Origin: Caldimicrobium sp.
Lineage (GTDB): Bacteria; Desulfobacterota; Thermodesulfobacteria; Thermodesulfobacteriales; Thermodesulfobacteriaceae
Length of the DNA: 45,530 nt
Direction of reading: 5' to 3'
Assembly (NCBI GenBank): GCA_009903935.1
Contig: WYEG01000036.1
Coordinates: forward strand, 1-45,530
Positions 2,150 through 45,530 of the stretch are shown one piece after another (the stretch's first letter is position 1; every line of letters starts with the position of its first letter). The notes beneath the pieces are model-generated. The model worked only from the letters and a program-made list of their open reading frames with translations, made no database searches and was not told the origin of the DNA. A program made the position numbers and the translations under genes.

Positions 2150-4750
2150 ATGGTCAAAAAAGAGGAGCTAAAAGATTGGGCCATCCTTATAGATGGGAGC
2201 TCTTTTATCTACCGAGCTTACTTTGCCATTCAAGGCTATCTTTCAACTTCAAGGGGGTTCCCAACTAAAGCCATCTTTGGTGTCACGCAGATGCTTATCA
2301 AAATCTTAAAGGAATTTGAGCCTCAGACCATCGTCTGGTTTGCCGATGAGAAGGGACCTACCTTCAGGCATCTTGCCTTCGCAGAATACAAGGCGCAAAG
2401 ACCAGGAATGCCAGATGACTTAAAAGTTCAAATCTCCTACATAAAAAAAATCGTCTCTTCCTTAGGCATACCCTTTCTCTCTAAGGAAGGCTTTGAGGCT
2501 GACGACCTGATCTCGACCTTTGTTCACAAATTCCCCATCAAATCTATCATCGTAGCCCCGGACAAAGACCTTTACGCCTTAGTCTCTGAAAGGACTATTC
2601 TCTACGACCCTGTAAGAGAAGTCTTCATAGACAAAGAGGAATTCCTAAAAAAATTTGGCTTTCCGCCCGAGAGGTTCCCTGAGTTCCGGGCTTTGGTTGG
2701 AGACCCAAGCGATAACATAAAAGGGGTGCCGGGAGTCGGGGAAAAAACAGCCAAAGAGCTAATACTTCGCTTTAAAAGCCTTGAAGAGCTGTTTGAAAAT
2801 TTACACAAGGTGACCCCTCTTAAGCTTCGTGAGGCTTTAGCAAAGAATAAAGAAAGGGTCTTCGAAAACTTAAGCTTAATGAGGCTAAGAACTGATGTCG
2901 AGCTTCCTTCTCACGACCTAAGCTTTTATCAAAGGCGTGAGCCAGACCTTTTAACCCTTAAAAGCCTTTTCAAAGAGCTTGAATTCAAAAAGTTTTTAAA
3001 GGAGTTCAACTTCCCCTCAGAAGAAATAGAGTATAGCCTCCTAAAGGTTGATGAGGGAAGCCTTGATAAACATTTAGAAAAATCCGACTTGATAGGTTTT
3101 AGCCTAAAAAAAGAGGAAATAAAACTCTTTAATCTGGGCTTAAATAGAGAGGTCTTTTTAGCCCCATCGGACAAGGAATGCTTATCTCTCCCTCTAAATG
3201 AGCAAACCTTATCCCGTCTAACCCAAAAGCGCTTCTGTTTTTTTGACCTAAAAGAGAACCTTCATGAATTGAAGAAGACCTTTAAAGTTGAGCCCTTTTT
3301 TGAAGCGCTTTCAAATTTTGATGATGTAAAGCTTATGGCTTATCTTTTGGACCCTGGCAAAAAAAGCTACGAGCTTTCAGAATTAGCCTTCCACTATCTT
3401 GATGTCAACCTTAAAGAGACTGATGAACCCTGTAAAAAGGCTATCGTCGTTAGACGCCTTGGCAGCGCCTTAAAGGATGAGGTTTCAAAGGAAGGGCTAA
3501 AGGAGTGGTATCAAAGCGTAGAGGTTCCGTTAAGCTATGTCCTTTTTGAGATGGAGGATGCAGGTGTAAAGATTGACCTTTCCTATGTTAAAGAGCTAAG
3601 CCAAGAGTTTAGCGAGAGGCTAAAAGCCATCGAGGAAAAGCTTTATGAGTTGGCAGGCTTTCGGTTTAATCCCCGTTCTCCGCAGGAGGTTGCTAAGGTC
3701 CTTTTTGATAAACTAAAGCTTCCCAAGGTTAAGAATACACCTAAAGGGGAGCAGCCCTCAACGGATGTTGAAGTCCTTGAAGAGCTAAGGGGGCAACACC
3801 CCATAGTTGAGTATCTATTACAATACCGAAACCTCTACAAGCTAAAGAGCACTTACCTTGATGTTTTTTTGAAGCAAACAAGCCTTAAGGACCACAGGCT
3901 TAGGACTACTTACCATCAAACTGGTACAGCAACAGGAAGGCTTAGCTCGCAGAACCCAAACCTGCAGAACATCCCAGTTAAAGGAGAAGAAGGGCTAAAG
4001 ATAAGACGGGCTTTTATCGCCGAGGAAGGGTATTATCTTTTTAGCCTTGATTATTCTCAGATTGAGCTTCGTATCTTAGCCCATTTTTCCCAGGATGAAA
4101 ACCTTATCTCCTCTTTCCTTAGAGGGGAGGACATTCATACAAAAACCGCCTGCGAGGTCTTCGGGGTAAAACCTGAGGATGTAAGCCCAGAGATGAGGCG
4201 CGTTGCTAAGGTCATCAACTTTGGTATTGCCTACGGGATGAGCCCCTATGGGCTGGCAAAGGAGCTAAACATAGATAGACACTCGGCGGAGCTTTATATT
4301 AAAAGGTATTTTGAGAGATATCCTCAGGTAAAATCATACATAGAAGAGATTATAAAGTTTGCCCAAGAAACAGGGTATGTCAAGACCATTTCCGGTAGAA
4401 AAAGATACATCCCTGAGATCTTTAGCCCAAACAAAAACTTAAGAGACCTTGGTTTTCGGATGGCTATAAACACTCCTATCCAAGGGTCAGCGGCAGACCT
4501 TATGAAGTCCGCAATGGTTGCTTTAGCTCAAGAGATGAAACAAAGAGGGCTTAAGAGCAAAATACTCCTTCAGGTTCACGATGAGCTTATCCTTGAGGTT
4601 CCGGAAGAAGAATTAGAGGTTGTTCGAAGCTTGGCTATTGAAGTCATGGAAGAGCCCTTTTCCAGGCTTTCTTTACCTATTCGGCTTTCTGTTCCGATTA
4701 AGGTAAACTTTGCCTACGGGAGGTCTTGGGCAGATTGCAAGGAACAATAA
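2150..4750 (+). CDS. polA: DNA polymerase I
   Basis: An 866-residue family A polymerase for gap filling and Okazaki fragment processing. Residues about 8-290 are the 5' nuclease: ILIDGSSFIYRAYFAI, EADDLI, APDKDL, and a helix-hairpin-helix DNIKGVPGVGEKTAKEL. Residues about 300-470 correspond to the 3'-5' exonuclease fold, but the first catalytic motif (DxE) is replaced by IGFSLKKEE, so proofreading is probably lost, as in Taq polymerase. Polymerase motifs are intact: A, DYSQIELRILAHF near 633; B, RRVAKVINFGIAYG near 682; C, QVHDELILEV near 808. The gene sits five bases after the EamA gene and overlaps the start of the next gene. Confidence 0.97.
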   Translation: MVKKEELKDWAILIDGSSFIYRAYFAIQGYLSTSRGFPTKAIFGVTQMLIKILKEFEPQTIVWFADEKGPTFRHLAFAEYKAQRPGMPDDLKVQISYIKKIVSSLGIPFLSKEGFEADDLISTFVHKFPIKSIIVAPDKDLYALVSERTILYDPVREVFIDKEEFLKKFGFPPERFPEFRALVGDPSDNIKGVPGVGEKTAKELILRFKSLEELFENLHKVTPLKLREALAKNKERVFENLSLMRLRTDVELPSHDLSFYQRREPDLLTLKSLFKELEFKKFLKEFNFPSEEIEYSLLKVDEGSLDKHLEKSDLIGFSLKKEEIKLFNLGLNREVFLAPSDKECLSLPLNEQTLSRLTQKRFCFFDLKENLHELKKTFKVEPFFEALSNFDDVKLMAYLLDPGKKSYELSELAFHYLDVNLKETDEPCKKAIVVRRLGSALKDEVSKEGLKEWYQSVEVPLSYVLFEMEDAGVKIDLSYVKELSQEFSERLKAIEEKLYELAGFRFNPRSPQEVAKVLFDKLKLPKVKNTPKGEQPSTDVEVLEELRGQHPIVEYLLQYRNLYKLKSTYLDVFLKQTSLKDHRLRTTYHQTGTATGRLSSQNPNLQNIPVKGEEGLKIRRAFIAEEGYYLFSLDYSQIELRILAHFSQDENLISSFLRGEDIHTKTACEVFGVKPEDVSPEMRRVAKVINFGIAYGMSPYGLAKELNIDRHSAELYIKRYFERYPQVKSYIEEIIKFAQETGYVKTISGRKRYIPEIFSPNKNLRDLGFRMAINTPIQGSAADLMKSAMVALAQEMKQRGLKSKILLQVHDELILEVPEEELEVVRSLAIEVMEEPFSRLSLPIRLSVPIKVNFAYGRSWADCKEQ

Positions 4751-5523
4751 GGCTTGATAAATACTTAACCCATATTGGGGTTAGCTCTCGCAGAGAAGCG
4801 GTAAAGCTCATCAAAGCCGGCAAGGTCAAAGTAAACAGCAAAAATGTCTTTGACCCTGCTTTTAAGATAAACCCAGAGAAAGATGTGGTAGAGGTTGAAG
4901 GTTTCCAGAAAATCCCTTTCCAAGAGAACTTCTACTACAAGTTCTACAAACCCAAGGGATATATTACCTCAACCAAGGACAAAGAACCAACCATTTTTGA
5001 GCTTCTCCCTAAGGCTCTACCGGGCTTAAAGAGGCTTTTTCCTGCTGGAAGGCTTGACAAGGATGCCGAGGGACTCTTGATCTTGACAACCGACGGCGAG
5101 CTTGCCCATAGGATCATGCATCCAAAATGGAAGCTTGAAAAACGCTATGAGGTTCTCCTCGATAAACCTATAACCGATGAGGACATAAAAAGGCTTGAAG
5201 AAGGGATTGAGCTTAGTTCCCCATGTCACGCCGAGCTCCCCCTTTTGTCACCCCGAGCGAAGCGAGGGGTCCTTCACAAGGAAAAAACTTTACCAGCAAG
5301 GATAAAGGTCTTAGCCGAGGATAGAAAATTCTTAGAAGTAGCAGTGATAGAAGGGCGGTATCATCTGATAAAAAGGATGTTTGGCAAGCTTGGCTACCAA
5401 GTTTTATCCTTAAAAAGAATAGCCATAGGTCCTGTTTGTTTAGGAGAGCTAAAGCCAGCTGAAGCATTACCTTTGTCTCAAGAAGAGTTAGAAAGTCTTA
5501 AAACACTTTTGGGATTGAAATAA
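4726..5523 (+). CDS. RsuA/RluB-family rRNA pseudouridine synthase with a repeat-derived insertion
   Basis: A 265-residue synthase with an N-terminal S4 RNA-binding domain (RLDKYLTHIGVSSRREAVKLI) and a catalytic domain with the family motif FPAGRLDKDAEGLLILTTDG, where the aspartate of GRLD is the nucleophile. It modifies 16S or 23S rRNA; RluB-like action on 23S is likelier but unproven. Residues about 167-189 (bases 5224-5290) are not part of the family. They translate two adjoining copies of the palindromic repeat found elsewhere in this window, and the normal sequence resumes at LPARIKVL. There is no ATG start. TTG at 4726 or 4735 follows GGGAGG (4718-4723), both inside the polA end, implying translational coupling. 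Confidence 0.9.
   Translation: MGRLQGTIRLDKYLTHIGVSSRREAVKLIKAGKVKVNSKNVFDPAFKINPEKDVVEVEGFQKIPFQENFYYKFYKPKGYITSTKDKEPTIFELLPKALPGLKRLFPAGRLDKDAEGLLILTTDGELAHRIMHPKWKLEKRYEVLLDKPITDEDIKRLEEGIELSSPCHAELPLLSPRAKRGVLHKEKTLPARIKVLAEDRKFLEVAVIEGRYHLIKRMFGKLGYQVLSLKRIAIGPVCLGELKPAEALPLSQEELESLKTLLGLK
5224..5274 (+). repeat. Two adjoining palindromic repeat units inside the pseudouridine synthase gene
   Basis: A partial unit TGTCACGCCGAGC (5224-5236) is followed by a fuller unit starting TGTCACCCCGAGCG near 5246 and ending GCGAGGGGTCC near 5272. They match the intergenic family at 15330-15700. The insertion keeps the reading frame and adds about 23 residues. Confidence 0.8.
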
Positions 5524-15307: not shown

Positions 15308-15329
15308 ATTAGTTAGAGGCTGTTCAAAA

Positions 15330-15700
15330 AAGTTCCCTACTCCGTCCTGTCGAGCGTCCTTTTTTGTCCTGCCGAGCAACATCTTTTTGTCCTGCCGAGC
15401 GATAGCGAGGCATCTCCTACTCATCTTGTCATTTCGAGCGTAGCGAGAAATCTCCTATTTGACAATTGGAGACCCCTCGGCTTGCGCCTCGGGGCGACAA
15501 AAAAATGGCTCGGGGTGACCCCTCCATCCATGTCCTGCCGAGCCCCCATTTTTGTCGTGCCGAGCGTAGCGAGGCATCCCTCACTTCGTTCGGGATGACG
15601 CTTCAGGATGTCTTCCCGAGGCACGTAAGCGCCGAGGGACCCCTCGCTTATGCTTGGGGCGACAAAAAAGTAGGCTCGGGACGACTGCAGGAGGGCTTGC
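15330..15700. repeat. Cluster of palindromic repeats in both orientations
   Basis: The roughly 440-base gap between the efflux operon promoter and the THEP1-Tmk gene holds no believable gene. It is filled with six to eight diverged units of a family with consensus like TGTCNTNCCGAGCGNAGCGAG followed by GNATCTCCT. Forward units lie near 15349, 15366, 15388, 15426, 15530 and 15554. Inverted units are seen in CCCCTCGGCTTGCGCCTCGG (15473-15492), near 15587 and in 15635-15665. The outer arms are self-complementary (TTTC/GAAA, TCCC/GGGA), so transcripts would fold into hairpins. Small open frames here are just translations of the repeats. Confidence 0.85.
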
Positions 15701-15712
15701 CCAAAAACATTT

Positions 15713-16873
15713 TTAATACAGCCTCACATTACTCAATACTTCATCGATCAGCTTATCAACAGGCTGCAAAGCATCAAGCCTCTGCACCTTAAAGAGGGGA
15801 AGGAGCTTCTCGTAGTTTCCGGCAATCCTTACAAGCTTTTCCTCTTTCTCAAAGATAGAAAATTCGTTTCCTCTCTCCTTTAATCTCTTTACAGCCACCT
15901 CAACTGGTAAGTCAAAGTAAATCACCAGGTCAGGAGTTGGGGCAATGGTCTCATTAAGGATCAAAAGCTCTTTAAAATCAAAGCCTTCAGCACCTTGGTA
16001 GGCGATGGTTGATGGATAGTAGCGGTCAAGGATGACAAGCTTTCCTTCCTTTAAAGAAGGAATGATAAGGCTTTTAACATGCTCAAGGCGATCCTTGATA
16101 AAAAGGGAAAGCCTCTCCTCCTTGGGAAAATTCCCATTTTTTAAGGCTTCTCTTAATTTTTTTCCGTAGGCTCCGTTTGTTGGCTCATAGGAAAAAACAA
16201 ATTTAGGATTATTTTTTAGCCTTTCCACCAAGGCTTTATGCACTGTGGTTTTCCCTGCTCCGTCAATCCCCTCAAGGACGACCAAAAGCCCCGGTCTTAA
16301 AAATTCAAGCAAAAGCCTTTCACGCAAAAAATCCCTATTCTCTAAGGTTACTTCGCACAATAGAACCTTTTCTAAATTCCTTATCCGCTGTAAAAAGGGA
16401 TGGTCTCCCTTACCAACGGTAGCAATAAAAGGGATGTTTCTCTCTAAAACCTTCTCAAAAAAAGGAATAAACTTGGGAGATTTTAGCTCCATCTTCCCGA
16501 CCTCATCAAGGATAAGGACGACATCTATTTTTTCCGAAAGTTCATGCTCTAAGATAGAAAGCATTCTTTCCAAATTTTCAACAAGGACAGTGTAGCTACC
16601 AACCTTAGGTAGGTCTTTTCTTGAAAGATGTTTCCGGGCTAAGGGTAATGAGGAAGGAAAAACTTTTTTCGTTTCCCCAATCGGAACAAGGTCAAATCCT
16701 ATCCTATCCCGTTTGCCTTTAGTCTCTCTCACCTCTTCGGTAATGAAGCCAAAAAACTTAACCTTTGGAAAGGTCTTCTCTAAGATGTCTTCAAAATACT
16801 TAATGAGTGTGGTTTTACCAGACCGAGGATTACCTGTTATTAAGAGCCCTTTTCGGAAGCAAAAAAGACGCAT
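15713..16873 (-). CDS. tmk: THEP1-type NTPase fused to thymidylate kinase
   Basis: A 386-residue protein with two P-loop domains. Residues 1-190 look like THEP1 nucleoside-triphosphatase: Walker A GNPRSGKTT (14-22), FGFITEEVRE, and Walker B VVLILDEVGKMEL around D123-E124. Residues about 193-386 are thymidylate kinase: LVVLEGIDGAGKTT (P-loop near 202-210), SYEPTNGAYGKKLREAL, and the DRY motif in LDRYYPSTIAYQG (283-293). The second half makes dTDP from dTMP; the first half's physiological substrate is uncertain. Both active sites look intact. The start follows the Smr gene's stop with no gap, so the two are coupled. The fusion is unusual to my knowledge. Confidence 0.9.
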   Translation of the reverse strand: MRLFCFRKGLLITGNPRSGKTTLIKYFEDILEKTFPKVKFFGFITEEVRETKGKRDRIGFDLVPIGETKKVFPSSLPLARKHLSRKDLPKVGSYTVLVENLERMLSILEHELSEKIDVVLILDEVGKMELKSPKFIPFFEKVLERNIPFIATVGKGDHPFLQRIRNLEKVLLCEVTLENRDFLRERLLLEFLRPGLLVVLEGIDGAGKTTVHKALVERLKNNPKFVFSYEPTNGAYGKKLREALKNGNFPKEERLSLFIKDRLEHVKSLIIPSLKEGKLVILDRYYPSTIAYQGAEGFDFKELLILNETIAPTPDLVIYFDLPVEVAVKRLKERGNEFSIFEKEEKLVRIAGNYEKLLPLFKVQRLDALQPVDKLIDEVLSNVRLY

Positions 16874-45443: not shown

Positions 45444-45530
45444 CATAGCGAGGGAGCAACAAACATGAAGATAGCCAACCATTTATTGTCATCCCGAGCA
45501 TAGCGAGGGAGCACAAACATGAAGATAGCC
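45443..45530 (+). repeat. Direct repeat pair containing the palindromic unit
   Basis: GCATAGCGAGGGAGC followed by (A)ACAAACATGAAGATAGCC occurs at 45443-45476 and again at 45498-45530, a 55-base period. The second copy has the fuller TGTCATCCCGAGCATAGCGA head. The window ends exactly at the end of the second copy, so the array may continue. Confidence 0.8.

Follow-up and report, generated by a model that had tools for sequence, protein, structure and literature searches.

The RsuA/RluB-type pseudouridine synthase gene (rluB) of this Caldimicrobium sp. carries a genuine insertion, kept in frame, of a REP-like element, which is most likely tolerated as a loop and works in a manner resembling that of the Rickettsia palindromic elements (RPE). 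We consider it very probable that a repeat unit made up of a half-unit and a hairpin was inserted into rluB, that the resulting loop of 20 residues was tolerated, and that the same kind of event recurred in 13 other genes. The features in the window, which is the whole stretch of 45,530 nucleotides that was analysed, are given in Table 1.

Table 1. Position of the gene, its insert and the related repeat features in the window
Feature	Position	Strand	Remarks
RsuA/RluB-type pseudouridine synthase ORF	4726..5523	+	265 aa; probable start at TTG; overlap with the end of polA
Net insertion relative to orthologues, 60 bp / 20 residues	5218..5277	+	Placement ambiguous within a few codons
Half-unit TGTCACGCCGAGC (TGTC...CCGAGC) with pyrimidine-rich spacer	5224..5246	+	Tandem unit of the intergenic arrays
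Full palindrome GTCACCCCGAGCGAAGCGAGGGGTC	5247..5271	+	TGTC tag, stems, GA/GA mismatch, GAA loop; covariation, 63 copies
Intergenic MITE-like composite, about 410 bp	15316..15725		Inverted-repeat ends; several repeat copies; limits approximate
Another palindrome copy, at the end of the contig	45488..45512	+	Within a direct duplication of 54-55 bp

The rluB protein contains the S4 and PseudoU_synth_2 domains and passes the cut-off of the TIGR00093 subfamily (133.7 bits, cut-off 109.3); it is nearest to RsuA, RluB and RluF and passed none of the equivalog cut-offs. The insert was absent from 29/29 orthologue loci of relatives, a set in which the sequence of L021 stops shortly past the insert site, and the gap of about 20 residues falls between GIELS and EKTLP. 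It was also absent from 8 more orthologue sequences taken from named records, which are partly the same genes, and the HMMER alignment of rluB with solved RsuA structures was interrupted or gapped at the insert. The earlier note had suggested this alignment of orthologues, and an orthologous loop of unrelated DNA was not seen in it. The note had also put the gain at about 23 residues, which has to be corrected to a net 20 in all 29 comparisons; the repeat does begin with the codon of C167, where the note had let the insert start. The ORF stays open across the repeat and beyond it, the catalytic and core motifs are intact, and GRLDKD and EGRYHLIKRMF beside the insert are preserved, as the note had stated for the flanking motifs. 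The half-unit in rluB has a spacing of 22, which is no multiple of 3, and the frame was saved by the total length alone. Among the relatives searched, no close one was found to carry the insert in rluB; the genome sets held no other genome of the genus of the window, and the closest named relatives by the rluB protein are Thermodesulfobacterium species. At the position where several orthologues have the ATG of MRLDK, rluB has ATA, and a TTG lies upstream within the overlap with polA (4726-4750). As ATA replaces the usual ATG, the upstream TTG start is probably needed.

An AlphaFold2 model of the protein was built from nine sequences (mean pLDDT 81.6). Residues 166-185, which correspond to the insert, had pLDDT values below 50 and were flanked by two short strands at residues 161-163 and 186-188. 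The best match of the model was the RNA-bound RluB 4lgt_D (Z 24.8, rmsd 2.9, 235 aligned), and RluF and RsuA were also matched. The model thus describes the insert as what is probably a disordered loop on an otherwise normal RluB fold, and we infer from the low model confidence that this loop is exposed on the surface. It had been proposed that the protein may tolerate the insert or use it as a surface loop. The first part is supported, and the second part is not. A loop retained for rRNA binding or for altered specificity is very improbable in our view. The middle of the loop is basic (SPRAKRGV) in an enzyme family that binds RNA, and the available text of PMC3733652 notes REPs in the pseudouridine synthase genes of other bacteria. 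However, other frames of the repeat DNA yield unrelated peptides in MurI, NadD, UbiE and other proteins, and the loop of rluB is not conserved across species and is predicted to be disordered.

The DNA at positions 5224-5273 belongs to a repeat found throughout the genome, of which it holds a half-unit and a hairpin unit, in agreement with the earlier assignment of 5224-5274 to the intergenic repeat family. A 101-base query around the insert gave 55 BLAST matches in the same genome, and the palindrome pattern GTCRNNNCGAGCGNAGCGAGNNNTC gave 123 genome matches when up to 3 mismatches were allowed, whereas the reversed-pattern control gave 0. In the hairpin fold, a 5-bp stem (5250-5254 / 5266-5270) is followed by facing GA/GA mismatches and then by a 2-bp stem, which is closed by a GAA loop. 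Its stability was not higher than that of shuffled DNA (z -0.87). On the other hand, the stem was paired in 89.8% of the cells in 63 distinct copies, and 61 cells were altered on both sides, compared with a shuffled mean of 20.8. The covariation score of the stem was 0.439 (shuffled mean 0.228) and was reached by 0/500 shuffles, a result that is no strict probability because the copies share kinship. The search pattern had left three stem positions per side free, so that covariation at these positions was not built in. The first stem pair was A-U in 22 copies, G-U in 21 and another combination in 20, while the second was U-A in 34, C-G in 23, U-G in 4 and another combination in 2. To judge from the sequences, the hairpin is conserved through compensation, and the evidence for this is covariation rather than stability. 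The Rfam scan of the window returned tRNAs and nothing else, and the repeat was not matched by any plasmid or phage record.

The stretches around the repeat matches were surveyed for copies inside protein genes, and in-frame copies were found in other genes, as the earlier note had asked one to look for. An internal in-frame repeat was present in 14 recognisable proteins including rluB, the 13 further hosts being HyuA-like, TrpE, CinA, TrxB-like, IspE, MurI, MetG, NtrC-like, AroD, NadD, MutS, AAA ATPase and UbiE. IspE, MurI, NadD and MetG are usually essential enzymes. The best-supported inserts are those of MutS (absent from 16/16 relatives), UbiE (absent from 15/15 aligned relatives; the sixteenth genome, G013, gave weak matches alone and was left out) and IspE (about 57 residues, absent from 16/16 relatives). 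In IspE (L103:1336-2340, minus strand), 18-bp tandem units stand immediately ahead of the SGTGST motif. MutS showed no clear gap against the solved E. coli protein and UbiE aligned roughly with its solved homologue, and these two inserts were settled by close relatives without them. MurI, NadD, TrxB, TrpE and AroD are good cases, with surplus residues relative to solved homologues, as is the AAA ATPase, in which a 181-residue match covers a 130-position profile. The weak cases are CinA, MetG, HyuA and NtrC. The alignment of CinA with its solved homologue was ambiguous, and the basis for MetG, HyuA and NtrC, and to a lesser extent for the AAA ATPase, is the in-frame repeat within a recognisable protein. 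For MetG, a single NCBIfam profile of 648 positions spans residues 2-645 and showed no net gain in length. IspE, MurI, NadD, MutS, UbiE and MetG scored above the NCBIfam cut-offs.

Several other candidates were set aside. The copy in BacA (L102:1736-2488) has 4 mismatches and was judged to be a chance match, as the protein is covered from end to end by its Pfam match and has no extra length. An N-terminal ORF extension in L055 runs through a MITE end and matched no family above cut-off. The terminal cases, namely a TPR protein (L112), an MBL-fold protein (L125), the C-terminus of AroE and L065:4661-5896, where the repeat lies 44 residues from the protein start, were kept apart from the 14, as was L102:1168-1716, which matched no family. 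Other ORFs of less than 150 codons near arrays were discarded as probably spurious. With inserts in 14 recognisable genes of one 1.56 Mb genome, in which the Y1_Tnp search found no REP transposase, the rest of the genome lifts the interest above that of the single rluB case and offers a natural test set of disordered loops gained by proteins from mobile DNA.

The frames of the unit itself are mostly open. Its forward frames were open in 111, 109 and 69 of 112 copies, and its reverse frames in 107, 66 and 108. As four of the six frames are open in 107-111 of the 112 copies and two in 66-69, a random insertion would often be free of stops, and length would be the main filter. The arrays within genes have periods of 21 (HyuA), 24 (TrpE), 21 (CinA), 18 (IspE), 21 (NtrC) and 21 (AroD). 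Periods divisible by 3 were thus found in 6/6 in-gene arrays versus 14/42 elsewhere (Fisher p = 0.003), an outside count that is raised because the loose array filter also let other repeats into the 42, such as the coding period-21 repeats of L044 and L102. A count of single spacings, in which a non-coding run of L055 was wrongly entered as coding, showed no difference (8/18 vs 46/127). The divisibility of all in-gene periods by 3 is the best sign that these proteins are probably translated and their frame selected. This result does not extend to rluB, where the half-unit occurs once and an array is lacking.

We propose the following course of events. A unit present in more than 100 copies in the genome entered the RsuA/RluB-type gene, where the net 60 bp was a multiple of three by chance and the frame used is stop-free, so that 20 residues were gained. 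The loop between the two strands would have been translated and tolerated, 13 other recognisable genes underwent a like insertion, and frame-breaking insertions would presumably have been purged. The unit would be selfish or neutral toward the host proteins. It might be supposed instead that rluB is an incipient pseudogene, whose enzyme was inactivated by the insert and whose open frame is due to chance or to recent insertion. A second RsuA/RluB-type gene is present in the genome (G000:C44:43476-44186, 41% identical to rluB), and its match of 237 codons against 256 query residues fits the insert being absent there; it could compensate if the function of rluB were lost. This paralogue and the requirement for the upstream TTG would suit inactivation. 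They are opposed by the intact motifs and remaining frame of rluB, by the many in-frame cases, which include housekeeping genes, and by the in-gene periods divisible by 3, and we regard a pseudogene as improbable. Tolerance of the loop remains the preferred reading.

Outside genes, half-unit arrays closing with the full palindrome are often bounded by a left end resembling GAGGCTGTNTNAAAAATGTTTTTGTGCAAGCCC and a right end resembling TTTTTGAACAGCCCC. The list of these composites comprises 18 end pairs, two of which (1,012 and 1,663 bp) resemble chance pairings. Composites with GGGGCTGTTCAAAAA-type inverted ends and arrays were seen in the window (Table 1), in L042, L043, L044, L045, L047, L054, L119, L131 and L132, and in others. 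The composite of the window has a terminal inverted repeat match at 15316-15330, its opposite end was placed from a minus-strand match at 15693, and it contains palindrome copies at 15428-15452 and 15554-15578. Flanking duplications of 12 bp (L045), 11 bp (L131), 10 bp (L132), 9 bp (L054) and 8 bp (L119) were observed. The composites may accordingly be described as MITE-like: they end in terminal inverted repeats, and some copies have apparent target duplications of 8-12 bp. About half of the 18 pairs have, some 10 bp beyond one composite end, a sequence that resembles TTGACA (or TGTCAA), as if the composites inserted adjacent to -35 boxes. No IS-like pair of 1-2 kb that could be an autonomous partner was seen by eye among 53 terminal inverted repeat matches with up to 2 mismatches.

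The context of the rluB copy differs from that of many intergenic copies, which sit within composites. The terminal inverted repeats were sought at the rluB insert and were absent, and the likeness to MITEs belongs to the intergenic composite alone. It is possible, although we lean against it, that the insert is a fragment of a MITE-like element that was used to fill a DNA break during its repair; this would be a version of the main explanation and not an exclusive alternative. The half-unit followed by a final palindrome is the inner layout of the MITE arrays, and the lack of inverted ends in rluB would fit a fragment. Yet clusters that consist of palindromes and have no MITE ends are common. 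Of the 30 short clusters (up to 80 bp, good core), 10 lie within ORFs of at least 150 codons, and some palindrome-only clusters have long flanking duplications.

When the flanks of all clusters were compared, 6/84 scored at least 15, where random places would give 0.12. Among the clusters of up to 80 bp, 4/29 scored at least 16, where 0.04 would be expected. The UbiE copy (L130:1648-1743) is flanked by a duplication identical in 28/30 bp, with 36 bp between and 66 bp from copy to copy. Others are those of L121 (26/29, 38 bp between), L113 (20/21, 74 bp), L110 (23/27, 61 bp) and L120 (20/23, 113 bp), and that of AroE (19/24, 65 bp) had a lower score of 11.5. Orthologues of UbiE have a single copy of the duplicated stretch, so the duplication probably arrived with the insertion. 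Duplications at HyuA (12 bp) and MBL (15 bp) do not adjoin the repeat, the conserved end of the MITE is part of the flank matches of L116 and L119, and L054:961 is rich in pyrimidines and its core is weak; these were not counted. The majority of repeat copies show no significant flanking duplication. The flanks of the rluB insert gave no significant duplication (P ~0.115), and so the rluB copy itself is not attributable to a duplication mechanism.

According to the available text of PMC2817692, larger target duplications are not made by IS200/IS605-type transfer, and the duplications of 19-30 bp thus suggest another route. Movement by a staggered break with fill-in, or by template switching, might be considered rather than IS200/IS605-type transfer. 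The Y1_Tnp/RAYT profile (PF01797) had no match in the Caldimicrobium genome, which is 97.4% complete, while 5/14 control genomes were positive, and mobilisation by Y1/RAYT was rejected because of this absence. Y1_Tnp is present in several repeat-bearing genomes of the phylum and also in G027, which has 2 exact matches, and it is lacking in G017, which has 1 match; an association of Y1_Tnp with the repeat is therefore unsupported. More tentatively still than the fragment origin, and on balance doubtfully, the palindromic unit could be an independently mobile mini-element that moves by a non-RAYT route, makes target duplications of 19-30 bp and adds loops to housekeeping proteins, with arrays then growing in-frame by threes. 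The flanking duplications provide a handle on the movement of such elements.

The genome also has a CRISPR array (L177, from 2139) with 38 copies of a repeat of about 36 bp at a spacing of 71-77 bp, and one cas1 match (C42:46418-47206). Placement of the palindromes by off-target Cas1-Cas2 spacer integration was considered, as cas1 is present and the inserts of UbiE and L121, 36 and 38 bp long, lie between duplications of 30 and 29 bp. It was rejected as hardly credible on geometry: the duplication-flanked inserts vary from 36 to 113 bp, and the duplications are unequal to the array repeat of about 36 bp with its 71-77 bp spacing.

Di Nocera et al. (2013, PMC3733652), in the part of the paper available, described GTAG and CGTC REPs with intragenic copies in many species, classed RPE-4 and RPE-6 of R. 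conorii as CGTC REPs, and reported in-frame palindromic insertions in Rickettsia as well as in several bacteria rich in REPs. The present repeat is like RPE-1, RPE-4 and RPE-6 as described there, short palindromes lying in frame in unrelated, apparently functional genes. The resemblance to RPE that the earlier note had seen holds in the sense of working alike and not of membership, the comparison being with the published description of RPE, and it is borne out by the in-frame copies in unrelated genes. Unlike RPE, the repeat belongs to a host of the Thermodesulfobacteriaceae that is not obligate intracellular, its palindrome has a facing GA/GA mismatch and a GAA loop, and it forms head-to-tail half-unit arrays, with many copies within a MITE-like element. 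It also resembles the CGTC (TGTC) REPs of the available text of PMC3733652 in the unpaired TGTC tag before the stem, that class having an unpaired CGTC, TGTC or CCTC tag at one end, and in its intragenic copies. The class has complementary A-T at the first two stem positions, and in the present repeat the first stem pair is A-T in part of the copies; a dedicated transposase was not seen in the Y1_Tnp search. However, its stem of 5 + 2 bp and 3-nt loop differ from the stem of 8-9 bp and loop of 4-5 nt that define that class, head-to-tail arrays are common, and several covarying stem types occur within one genome. With the GTAG REPs associated with RAYT it shares the high copy number of short palindromes and their clustering, but the tag is TGTC and not GTAG, and a Y1_Tnp gene was not found in the genome.

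The kind of insertion is thus known, whereas the composite organisation and the flanking duplications look new relative to the open-licence literature. The word "duplication" is absent from the available text of PMC3733652. The accessible portion of PMC12306157 gives REP counts for three Thermodesulfobacteriota, and wording on intragenic copies was not found in it. Open-licence literature searches for the core sequence of the repeat returned nothing relevant.

The distribution of the repeat across the phylum is patchy. A 60-base query against 30 genomes of the family gave 44 matches in the own genome, 2 in G022, 1 in G017 and 0 in all others. At least one exact pattern match was found in 24/297 genomes of the phylum; the Caldimicrobium genome had 33, and dozens were found elsewhere in three genomes of one other genus (28, 40 and 103). 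The end of the contig (45442-45530) falls inside the direct repeat that holds the last palindrome copy of Table 1, and this may be an assembly edge or one more duplication-flanked insertion.
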